A stretch of 64,000 nt of DNA from contig NZ_CP023396.1 in the NCBI RefSeq assembly GCF_008808095.1, positions 2,046,001-2,110,000 on the forward strand, written 5' to 3'. Source of the DNA: Pseudoalteromonas ruthenica (lineage in GTDB: Bacteria > Pseudomonadota > Gammaproteobacteria > Enterobacterales > Alteromonadaceae). Positions 31,673-36,469 of this stretch are shown piece after piece (the first letter of the stretch is position 1; every line of letters starts with the position of its first letter). The position numbers and the translations under genes are program-made. Below the pieces are notes generated by a model. The model saw only the letters and a list, made by a program, of their open reading frames with translations. It did not search any database and was not told the origin of the DNA.

Positions 31673-31700
31673 AAAAAGGCCAGCTAAGCTGGCCTTTTTT
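31673..31700. terminator. Bidirectional terminator between ispB and rpoH
   Basis: A 12-bp stem AAAAAGGCCAGC/GCTGGCCTTTTT with loop TAA, and T tracts on both strands. It lies between convergent ispB and rpoH. Confidence 0.9.
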
Positions 31701-31717
31701 GAGCACGGTATAACTAC

Positions 31718-32581
31718 TTATGCCATCGCATTTTGCAGCTTTTTCATCGCCGTTTTTTCTAGCTGGCGTACACGCTCTGCTGACACTTCATATTTTTGTG
31801 CCAACTCTTGTAATGTCGCTTTCTCATCTGCAAGCCAACGCGATGTAACGATATCCTGCGAACGATCGTCCAGCGTTTTCAGTGCTGAGAATAAGCGTGC
31901 ATGAGATTGCTCTTGCCATTGCTCCTGCTCTACACTTTCGGCTAAATCCGAAGCGTTGTCAGTTAAGTATTGCACTGGCGAATAGCTTTGCCCAACACTG
32001 CTATCATCTTCGTCAGCACTTAAATCGAAGCCCATATCTTGGCCGCTCATACGTGATTCCATCTCACGTACTTCTTTTTCACTAACGCCTAGCTCGCTGG
32101 CCACTGTGGCCACCTCTTCTTGGTTGAACCAACCTAGGCGCTTTTTATTTTTGCGTAGATTAAAGAACAGTTTACGCTGCGCTTTAGTGGTCGCAACTTT
32201 TACGATACGCCAGTTCTTTAACACATATTCATGGATTTCAGCTTTGATCCAGTGTACGGCAAAAGACACCAAACGCACTCCCACACTGGGATCGAAACGT
32301 TTAACTGCTTTCATAAGGCCAATGTTACCCTCTTGGATTAGGTCTGATTGTGGCAAACCATAACCGCTGTAACTTTTGGCAATATGGGCGACAAAACGCA
32401 GATGCGACATGATCAACTGTTTTGCAGCCTCTAGATCGCCTTCTTGCTGTAATCGAGTCGCTAACCGACGTTCTTCCTCGGCCTCGAGCATTGGGATGGT
32501 GCTAACAGCCTGCAAATATCCTTCGATGCTCGCGCTTTGTTGGCCAACCGTTAATGCCATTGCATTTAAATTCGTGCTCAT
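31718..32581 (-). CDS. rpoH: Heat-shock sigma factor RpoH (sigma-32)
   Basis: A 287-residue sigma-32 (E. coli 284). Region 2 contains [16 protein letters not shown]. The RpoH box [18 protein letters not shown], which marks heat-shock sigma factors and is involved in control by chaperones, is fully present near residues 130-150. Region 4 carries the -35 recognition helix ([18 protein letters not shown]). The start has a very strong ribosome site (GAGGTGA). Upstream sits a sigma-70 promoter overlapped by a perfect CIRCE operator, so transcription may be HrcA-controlled. It is next to the ftsYEX genes as in E. coli. Confidence 0.98.
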
Positions 32582-32615
32582 TTTTCACCTCGGGTGATCA
32601 ATCTGTCCATTTAAT

Positions 32616-32642
32616 TTAGCACTCTTTAACCGAGAGTGCTAA
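32616..32642 (-). promoter_or_regulatory. Perfect CIRCE element (HrcA operator) at rpoH
   Basis: TTAGCACTC (32616-32624), nine bases, then GAGTGCTAA (32634-32642): an exact match to the CIRCE consensus 9-N9-9. It begins four bases after the -10 box of the rpoH promoter, so the predicted start site falls inside the operator, the classic place for HrcA repression. It lies 35-61 nt before the rpoH start codon. HrcA itself is not in the window. Confidence 0.92.
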
Positions 32643-32646
32643 TCGC

Positions 32647-32675
32647 ATTGTAACCTTTGACCTTATGCATATCAA
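32647..32675 (-). promoter_or_regulatory. Sigma-70 promoter of rpoH
   Basis: On the minus strand: -35 TTGATA (32670-32675), a 17-bp spacer, -10 TACAAT (32647-32652). Good matches at ideal spacing; predicted start near 32640, leader of about 59 nt. Confidence 0.8.
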
Positions 32676-32912
32676 GAAGTTCTACAAATCTTCTTAATGC
32701 GCTCTAACTTAATGATAAAAAAGGAAAATAAGTTGAGAGATTCAATTGTAACTCACAAAGATGACAAAAGAATAACAGCAACTTTTAAATTCAACCTAAC
32801 AAAGAAGCCCTGAATTAGAAGTGAACTATAGCACCACCTCACGCACTTGCCACAAGCAAAGCTGTGAGCATCACTTGATGAAACAACCGTGCTTACAAGC
32901 GGTGCCGGCCCA

Positions 32913-34603: not shown

Positions 34604-36469
34604 TTATTGTTCGTTGCTAAACAGCGCCTCTATAAAGTCATCACTTTTGAAAGTGCGCAAGTCATCGATGCTTTCACCCACACCAATATAGCGAATAGGT
34701 GTTTTAAACTGATCGGCTATGGCGAATATGACTCCCCCTTTCGCCGTGCCATCTAGTTTAGTCAAAGTGATACCGGTCAAACCAACGGCCTGATCAAATA
34801 GTTTTACTTGGCTTATCGCATTTTGACCTGTTCCCGCATCAATGGTCAACATCACTTCATGGGGTGCTTCAGGGTCTATTTTTTTCATCACTCGCGCTAT
34901 TTTTTCAAGCTCTTGCATTAGATTGTCTTTATTTTGCAAGCGCCCGGCGGTGTCAGCAATTAGCACATCAACGTTGCGCGCTTTTGCAGCTTGGAAAGCA
35001 TCAAAGACCACAGAAGCGCTATCAGCTCCGGTATGCTGCGCGATAACGGGAATATCATTACGCTCTCCCCACACCTGCAATTGTTCTACCGCTGCTGCAC
35101 GGAAGGTATCGCCTGCAGCAAGCATTACCGACCTCCCTTGTTGTTGATACTGTTTAGCAAGCTTACCTATGGTGGTGGTTTTACCGACACCATTAACACC
35201 GACCATAAGTATGACAAACGGTCCATCTTTGCCCTCAAGGTTTAATGGCTGCTCAGCACTTGCCAACATTGTTGCCATCTCTTGCTTCAGTAGCTCATAT
35301 AAAGCCTCGCCATCTTTGAGCTGCTTGCGATCTGCTGCATCGGTAAGGCTATCAATCAACTTCACGGTGGTATCAACACCGACATCGGCTGTTAGTAGTT
35401 GTGTTTCTAACTCTTCGAATAATTCATCGTCAATTTTTTTGCCGCTAAATATAGACGCAAAGCCGGAGCCGATGTTTGACTTGGTTTTTAATAGCCCTTT
35501 TTTGAGTCGTGAGAAGAATCCTGGCTTTTTCTCAGCTACGGCCGCTTTTTCTGCCTGCTCTTGGGCGAGGCGTTCTTGCTGTTCACGTTCTGCTTGTTCT
35601 TTAGCTAAGCGTTCCTGCTCTTCGCGTTCTGCTTGTTCTTTCGCTAAACGCTCCTGCTCTTCACGCTCGGCTTGTTCTTTAGCTAGGCGCTCCTGCTCTT
35701 CACGTTCTGCTTGCTCTTTCGCTAAACGTTCTTGCTGTTCGCGTTCTGCCTGTTCTTTCGCTAAACGTTCTTGCTCTTCACGTTCTGCTTGTTCTTTAGC
35801 TAGGCGCTCCTGCTGTTCACGTTCTGCCTGTTCTTTCGCTAAGCGCTCTTGCTGTTCACGTTCTGCCTGCTCTTTAGCTAGGCGCTCCTGCTGTTCACGC
35901 TCGGCTTGTTCTTTCGCTAAACGCTCCTGCTGTTCACGTTCTGCCTGCTCTTTTGCAAGGCGCTCCTGCTGTTCACGTTCTGCTTGTTCTTTAGCTAAGC
36001 GCTCCTGCTGTTCACGCACTGCTTGTTCTTTCGCTAAGCGCTCCTGCTGTTCACGTTCTGCCTGCTCTTTTGCAAGGCGCTCCTGCTCTTCACGCTCGGC
36101 TTGTTCTTTAGCTAAGCGCTCCTGCTCTTCACGCTTGGCTTGTTCTTTAGCTAAGCGCTCCTGCTCTTTTCGTTCTGCCTGTTCTTTCGCTAAGCGCTCT
36201 TGCTCTTCACGTTCAGCTTGTTCTTTAGCTAGGCGCTCTTGCTGTTCACGTTCAGCCTGCTCTTTAGCTAAGCGCTCCTGCTCTTCACGCTCTGCCTGTT
36301 CTTTCGCTAAACGTTCCTGCTGTTCACGTTCTGCTTGTTCTTTCGCTAAGCGCTCCTGCTCTTCACGCTCAGCCTGCTCTTTTGCAAGACGTTCCTGTTC
36401 TTCTTGTTTTGCTTGCTCTTCTTTTTTACCTAATCCAAACCAGGACAGAAACTTACTTTTTTTAGCCAT
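34604..36469 (-). CDS. ftsY: Signal recognition particle receptor FtsY with repeat-expanded N-terminal domain
   Basis: A 621-residue SRP receptor GTPase that docks SRP-ribosome complexes at SecYEG. The C-terminal NG domain (from about residue 325) is standard: G1 GVNGVGKTTTIGKL, DTFRAAAVEQL, G3 DTAGRLQNK and G4 TKLDGTAKGG. The N terminus (MAKKSKFLSWFGLGKK) is a short basic/amphipathic anchor. Between them residues 24-309 are 22 tandem copies of a 13-residue unit, consensus (E/Q)QERLAKEQAERE, replacing the acidic A domain of E. coli FtsY (497 residues in total). The alternating Glu and Lys/Arg predict a very long single helix or coiled coil. Operon ftsY-ftsE-ftsX. Confidence 0.95.
   Translation of the reverse strand: MAKKSKFLSWFGLGKKEEQAKQEEQERLAKEQAEREEQERLAKEQAEREQQERLAKEQAEREEQERLAKEQAEREQQERLAKEQAEREEQERLAKEQAERKEQERLAKEQAKREEQERLAKEQAEREEQERLAKEQAEREQQERLAKEQAVREQQERLAKEQAEREQQERLAKEQAEREQQERLAKEQAEREQQERLAKEQAEREQQERLAKEQAEREQQERLAKEQAEREEQERLAKEQAEREQQERLAKEQAEREEQERLAKEQAEREEQERLAKEQAEREEQERLAKEQAEREQQERLAQEQAEKAAVAEKKPGFFSRLKKGLLKTKSNIGSGFASIFSGKKIDDELFEELETQLLTADVGVDTTVKLIDSLTDAADRKQLKDGEALYELLKQEMATMLASAEQPLNLEGKDGPFVILMVGVNGVGKTTTIGKLAKQYQQQGRSVMLAAGDTFRAAAVEQLQVWGERNDIPVIAQHTGADSASVVFDAFQAAKARNVDVLIADTAGRLQNKDNLMQELEKIARVMKKIDPEAPHEVMLTIDAGTGQNAISQVKLFDQAVGLTGITLTKLDGTAKGGVIFAIADQFKTPIRYIGVGESIDDLRTFKSDDFIEALFSNEQ
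35543..36400 (-). repeat. 22 x 39-bp tandem repeats inside ftsY
   Basis: Twenty-two imperfect 39-bp units coding the 13-residue motif (E/Q)QERLAKEQAERE, all in frame with no unit length change. Units differ mainly at synonymous sites and at the first residue (E or Q); rarer changes are E to K, E to V and K to Q. The last unit (QQERLAQEQAEKA) degenerates into the NG domain. Confidence 0.95.

Follow-up and report, generated by a model that had tools for sequence, protein, structure and literature searches.

Introduction

HrcA is the repressor of the classical heat-shock regulon of Bacillus subtilis and other bacteria, in which its operator, the controlling inverted repeat of chaperone expression (CIRCE), lies at groESL and hrcA-grpE-dnaK. 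We analyzed a 64-kb stretch of the genome of the marine bacterium Pseudoalteromonas ruthenica (contig NZ_CP023396.1, positions 2,046,001 to 2,110,000; hereafter, the window), in which a CIRCE lies in front of rpoH, which encodes the heat-shock sigma factor sigma-32. The operator is that of the classical regulon, the repressor is homologous and carries the same DNA-reading motif, and the stress-release logic would be the same. In contrast to the classical regulon, rpoH is the sole CIRCE location in Pseudoalteromonas, groES, dnaK and hrcA-grpE are devoid of the operator, and HrcA is not self-regulated through CIRCE.

In Escherichia coli the same sigma factor heads the response, and rpoH control combines mRNA folding, proteolysis and several promoters. 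E. coli differs from Pseudoalteromonas in having no HrcA, a statement of the initial annotation of the window that agrees with the absence of a match in our control genome.

CIRCE upstream of rpoH has been predicted in Geobacter sulfurreducens (Rodionov et al., 2004; PMC545781). As far as the accessible part of that report goes, this deltaproteobacterium resembles Pseudoalteromonas in having a perfect CIRCE close before rpoH (position -51 in Geobacter), but it also carries CIRCE at groESL and at hrcA-grpE-dnaK-dnaJ. Among the matches listed for HrcA with CIRCE, rpoH, Pseudoalteromonas or Alteromonadales, and in the portions of those sources that were available, there was no report of CIRCE at rpoH beyond Geobacter; RegPrecise and Permina and Gelfand (2003), the likeliest beta- or gammaproteobacterial precedent, lay outside the search. 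The idea of an operator at rpoH is not new. The new part, not found in the literature searched to the extent that it was available, is the reduction of the HrcA regulon to rpoH, together with a remodelled HrcA.

Results

A perfect CIRCE covers the predicted start of rpoH

The rpoH locus comprises the following elements:

31718..32581, minus strand: rpoH, heat-shock sigma factor sigma-32, 287 amino acids (open reading frame and TIGR02392)
32586..32591, minus strand: ribosome-binding site of rpoH, GAGGTG, present in the genus consensus at ≥60% of loci
32616..32642, minus strand: CIRCE operator, TTAGCACTC-N9-GAGTGCTAA, perfect arms with 0 mismatches
32647..32652, minus strand: -10 hexamer TACAAT of the predicted sigma-70 promoter of rpoH (sequence match)
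32670..32675, minus strand: -35 hexamer TTGATA of the same predicted promoter, with a 17-base spacer to the -10

The rpoH product scores 417.7 bits against TIGR02392 (cut-off 323.1), which identifies it as RpoH, and its five best named relatives are RpoH proteins of Pseudoalteromonas species (82–86% identity). The exact CIRCE that the initial annotation had placed on the rpoH promoter is indeed there: it starts four bases (GCGA, minus strand) after TACAAT, and its downstream end lies 34 bases from the rpoH ATG (32581, minus strand). The arm is lengthened by one T/A pair, which is invariant across the genus loci read. With ≤3 mismatches allowed, the window holds 1 CIRCE match vs. a mean of 0.02 in dinucleotide shuffles, and a chance origin of the element was rejected.

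The annotated hexamers TTGATA and TACAAT, 17 bp apart, are likewise present. Taken by itself, this match is weak evidence, with 3 such sites in 1.5 kb vs. 2.1 expected by shuffling. The predicted promoter is supported because its -10-like position is conserved in the genus, the best -10-like hexamer ending 4–5 bases before CIRCE in 57 of the 66 loci read. Transcription starting 6–8 bases past the -10 would begin inside the first CIRCE arm, so that a bound protein would cover the predicted start. As for the earlier claim that HrcA blocks rpoH, the placement of the operator stands and fits repression; repression itself would follow from that geometry.

rpoH is the only CIRCE locus in the genome

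In the whole genome (4.12 Mb, two contigs) the rpoH site is the only CIRCE with ≤2 mismatches. The initial annotation had expected further copies at groES, dnaK and hrcA. None was found: at the groES, dnaK and hrcA-grpE loci the nearest pattern has ≥6 mismatches, also when spacers of 6–12 bases are allowed upstream of the four genes. Both classical locations, groESL and hrcA-grpE-dnaK, thus lack CIRCE, and rpoH, instead of joining the usual CIRCE targets, is therefore the only one.

The chaperone genes are instead preceded by sigma-32-like sequences, as judged by the consensus: CTTGAAA-N13-CCCCAT before grpE, CTTGAAT-N12-CCCCTA before dnaK and CTTGGGT-N13-CCCCCATTA before groES. As a rough control, a related, laxer sigma-32 pattern has a single match in the 64-kb window, and such matches are therefore infrequent.

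Two observations concern the layout of these genes. The dnaK above the family cut-off sits on the smaller contig C2 (G000:C2:682678-684477), away from hrcA-grpE on C1. No ribosome-binding site is evident in front of hrcA (G000:C1:630672), and a TATAAC sequence stops three bases short of the hrcA ATG; the mRNA is possibly leaderless.

The operator is conserved across Pseudoalteromonas

CIRCE was found in 87 of 89 Pseudoalteromonas genomes, that of the window included. In the two remaining genomes (G016 and G066) no RpoH match exceeds the family cut-off, which means that rpoH is missing from those assemblies. The operator locus was read in 66 of the 87 positive genomes, and CIRCE precedes rpoH in all 66. 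Of the outcomes set beforehand as refuting, absence of hrcA from the genome and lack of conservation of the palindrome at related rpoH genes were checked, and neither occurred.

Conservation is concentrated in the arms, which carry 1.99 bits per position, as compared with 0.26–0.99 bits at the inner seven loop positions (33 different loops) and 0.73 bits on average over the 60 bases upstream of CIRCE. Only two operators (G017 and G029) are imperfect, and they share one and the same substitution. The hrcA gene of G029 (G029:C12:1804600-1807400) is broken into two overlapping frames, of which the matched one holds the C-terminal part only; both gene and operator are therefore damaged there. In G017 the hrcA frame is whole.

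The palindrome might act in the mRNA, as a 5′ hairpin of 10 pairs that stabilizes the rpoH transcript or shields its 5′-end with HrcA uninvolved. The predicted rpoH RNA folds into such a hairpin, and the predicted start places it at the 5′-end. It is the arm sequence itself, however, and not pairing alone, that is fixed: the arms are perfect in 64 of 66 loci, the substitution in the two exceptions is one-sided and breaks a pair, and no compensatory change is seen in any locus. In addition, the presence of CIRCE tracks that of HrcA (see below), and the rpoH leader as a whole shows no unusual stability (z -1.2). Since conservation lies in the sequence of the arms and not in their pairing, and leader stability is ordinary, an RNA hairpin was rejected as the main role; we consider it very improbable.

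A second CIRCE-like site with 2 mismatches occurs in 6 of the 89 genus genomes vs. 3 of 89 for a reversed control pattern. In five of the six (all but G043) no rpoH, groES, hrcA, grpE or dnaK match lies in the 2-kb stretch that holds it. On these counts, second sites were rejected as further targets.

Pseudoalteromonas HrcA keeps its DNA-reading region and has a diverged sensor domain

As predicted, the window genome contains hrcA, which adjoins grpE. The product shows full-length homology to HrcA and has the HrcA fold. The C-terminal domain PF01628 is matched with 34.4 bits (cut-off 22.2), and the SATVRN...SPHTSAGR motif is retained. Among its relatives at 59–67% identity, those with a genus-level source name are Pseudoalteromonas. 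The DNA-reading region, a winged helix-turn-helix, is conserved in Pseudoalteromonas HrcA and the sensor domain has strongly diverged. From the alignment, 4 of 61 open reading frames were left out because trimming to the first methionine made them shorter than 300 amino acids. A tree of 57 chosen rows, built with a quick method and rooted at its midpoint, sets all 16 Pseudoalteromonas proteins apart by a very long branch with support 100, which the root divides into lengths of 2.82 and 1.26 changes per site.

This branch, which parts Pseudoalteromonas HrcA from all other tree rows, could indicate a relic, i.e., a repressor and an operator in decay with regulation gone, and the split hrcA of G029 together with one of the only two imperfect operators would fit such a course. 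Against decay, all 89 genus genomes have an HrcA match, and the matched stretch is free of stops (in G029, the C-terminal frame only), and the winged helix-turn-helix and the operator arms are strongly conserved, whereas loop and flanks are not. A relic is thus highly unlikely.

Alternatively, HrcA may repress rpoH plus further targets through sites unlike CIRCE, in which case the one-gene regulon would be only apparent. A strongly diverged HrcA could have gained other sites, the pattern search covers CIRCE with ≤3 mismatches only, and in Helicobacter pylori, according to the available part of the report, HrcA affects 49 genes by RNA-seq, directly or not (PMC6843607), a breadth that speaks for this option. 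The conserved DNA-reading region and the unchanged operator, however, make a broad change of specificity unlikely, and the groES, dnaK and hrcA-grpE loci hold nothing closer than 6 mismatches. We regard additional targets of this type as possible, although rather unlikely.

Pseudoalteromonas HrcA is also rich in cysteines, with a mean of 8.4 per protein (27 rows) vs. 2.3 in 25 others. At residues 19, 40, 111, 198 and 290, a cysteine is present in 36 to 39 of the 39 Pseudoalteromonas rows, whereas 0 of 30 other rows have one. When compared with 26 sister-genus HrcA proteins, four of the five are unique to Pseudoalteromonas and Cys198 is common to 8 of the 26; Cys40 directly precedes the recognition helix. 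The sister-genus proteins share a different conserved cysteine (26/26, in the column of residue 97, window genome numbering), which Pseudoalteromonas HrcA lacks. Cysteines make up 2.5% of Pseudoalteromonas HrcA, 1.5% of the sister-genus proteins and 0.7% of canonical HrcA of the order, and 1.2% of the long open reading frames of the window (spurious ones included). The conserved positions suggest a thiol or metal input, as far as sequence can indicate.

CIRCE at rpoH is the rule in the HrcA-bearing family genomes searched and common in the class

HrcA and CIRCE co-occur: of 147 genomes, 94 have both, 2 HrcA alone, 1 CIRCE alone and 50 neither. In the family of the window genome, an HrcA match was found in 105 of 395 genomes and 10 of 52 genera (one genus, g344, below cut-off). 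Operators were searched in 28 family genomes, 19 with HrcA and 9 without. All 19 HrcA-bearing genomes (eight sister genera) carry CIRCE at one place only, rpoH, as a single copy or a tandem pair. Among the 9 genomes without HrcA, 7 have no CIRCE and 2 have a two-mismatch site elsewhere. Among the genomes searched, the rpoH-only state is the rule in this family.

Of 80 named records, 9 have CIRCE at rpoH: 5/5 Pseudoalteromonas, Rheinheimera pleomorphica, Alishewanella agri, Catenovulum sp. 2E275 and one metagenome-assembled genome. The other 71, which include Shewanella, Vibrio, Colwellia, Idiomarina, Aeromonas and enterobacteria, show ≥5 mismatches within ~300 bases upstream of rpoH.

In the Gammaproteobacteria at large, 281 of 369 genomes have CIRCE with ≤2 mismatches, a threshold at which weaker sites are missed. 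Thirty-five of them, a non-random sample given by the printed site list, were read site by site: CIRCE lies at rpoH in 29, at groES in 33 and at hrcA in 11, and one genome is rpoH-only. Another 27 single-site genomes, chosen for ≥90% completeness, comprise 12 rpoH-only and 15 groES-only cases. Among the sites surveyed, G353 L203 and G238 L226 have no gene assignment, and the second place of G138 is outside the loci read. The arrangement is therefore common in Gammaproteobacteria, and the earlier view of rpoH as an exceptional CIRCE location did not hold. Other members of the class thus share CIRCE at rpoH with Pseudoalteromonas, and differ from it in that most of the 35 read site by site carry the groES CIRCE too. 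Outside the family, 13 of 62 genomes are rpoH-only at ≤2 mismatches, as judged from operators alone, HrcA not having been searched there.

Tandem CIRCE copies upstream of rpoH, with starts 31–34 bases apart, occur in several sister genera and in other families. Catenovulum sp. 2E275 has tandem CIRCE before rpoH, and Catenovulum agarivorans has none (best pattern, 8 mismatches); a recent loss in the latter is possible. Degenerate CIRCE-like palindromes with 5 and 3 mismatches precede rpoH-like genes in G110 (HrcA not found) and G323, and are possible relics.

Discussion

The CIRCE of rpoH is real and conserved, and very probably functional. We consider it likely that it is the operator of HrcA over the rpoH transcription start, and that HrcA acts on the heat-shock response through the sigma factor alone, because rpoH is the only CIRCE-controlled gene in the genus and apparently also in the HrcA-bearing genera of the family. 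For this reading we rely on the operator, the promoter-like sequence, the status of sole site at ≤2 mismatches, the conservation, the co-occurrence with HrcA, and the homology and fold of the repressor; from these we infer binding, repression, signal and feedback.

In unstressed cells, HrcA bound to the rpoH CIRCE would stop RNA polymerase at the sigma-70 promoter and so hold sigma-32 at a low level. Upon heat or other protein-damaging stress HrcA would lose activity and rpoH transcription would rise. Sigma-32 would then turn on groESL, dnaK and grpE, which have sigma-32-like sequences upstream and no CIRCE, and the recovered chaperones would restore HrcA and close the loop.

Several observations weigh against HrcA as governor of rpoH. 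The winged helix PF03444, in the right place (residues 3–71), scores 19.7 bits, just under the cut-off of 21. The protein falls short of the NCBIfam TIGR00331 equivalog cut-off (110.6 vs. 197.2 bits), and the C-terminal GPTRM-Y-VIP-VD-TA signature, present in the consensus of 25 other HrcA proteins, is missing from the consensus of 27 Pseudoalteromonas HrcA. The protein of the window genome is a divergent homologue, HrcA-like rather than an equivalog. Sites with 3 mismatches also exist in the genome, namely seven copies of one sequence, with surroundings known for three of the seven, and one site on C2; the seven-copy sequence resembles an rRNA spacer. Finally, rpoH may have other promoters, less controlled by HrcA, since the sigma-70 promoter is overlapped in the window genome by a further element:

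32656..32682, minus strand: possible sigma-E-like promoter, GAACTT-N16-TCAAA (weak match to the consensus)

A pattern similar to that of the window occurs at 8 of 66 genus rpoH loci, and E. coli rpoH likewise has a sigma-E promoter.

How HrcA would be released is a separate matter. As described in the available part of the literature, GroE supports HrcA activity in B. subtilis, Chlamydia trachomatis and H. pylori, and a titration model has been proposed (PMC6032397). If GroE titration applied to Pseudoalteromonas, the feedback of GroE on its own gene would run through sigma-32 alone. Release by chaperone titration, borrowed by analogy from other bacteria, is in doubt here because the sensor domain is the part that has changed most. 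A more speculative proposal, to which we give little weight, is that Pseudoalteromonas HrcA, no longer tied to the chaperonin operon, is a one-operator governor of rpoH with a rebuilt sensor and its five conserved cysteines. Its release might then depend on a thiol, redox or metal signal, either instead of GroE titration or in addition to it, which would couple oxidative stress to sigma-32.

In the genus and the 19 genomes of eight sister genera, rpoH has stayed the constant CIRCE target and groESL is no longer one. With a single gene of its own, the repressor would be placed ahead of the sigma factor, and the two main heat-shock systems of bacteria would work in series. With GroE outside the direct regulon of HrcA, these bacteria would offer a clean natural experiment on the signal that HrcA senses, and also a test of how a sensor domain evolves once the targets of a regulator shrink to one.

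Neighboring features

Downstream of rpoH, one element was recognized by reading the sequence and is not among the output of the terminator scan:

31673..31699: T/A-tailed stem-loop separating rpoH from the convergently oriented polyprenyl synthetase gene (PF00348)

It is likely a terminator for both genes. On the other side lies the gene for FtsY:

34604-36469, minus strand: FtsY, 621 amino acids (PF00448 and PF02881)

This gene contains a 39-bp tandem array (35549-36420; 22.4 copies, 84% match), which encodes a long, charged 13-residue repeat ahead of the helical-bundle and GTPase domains.
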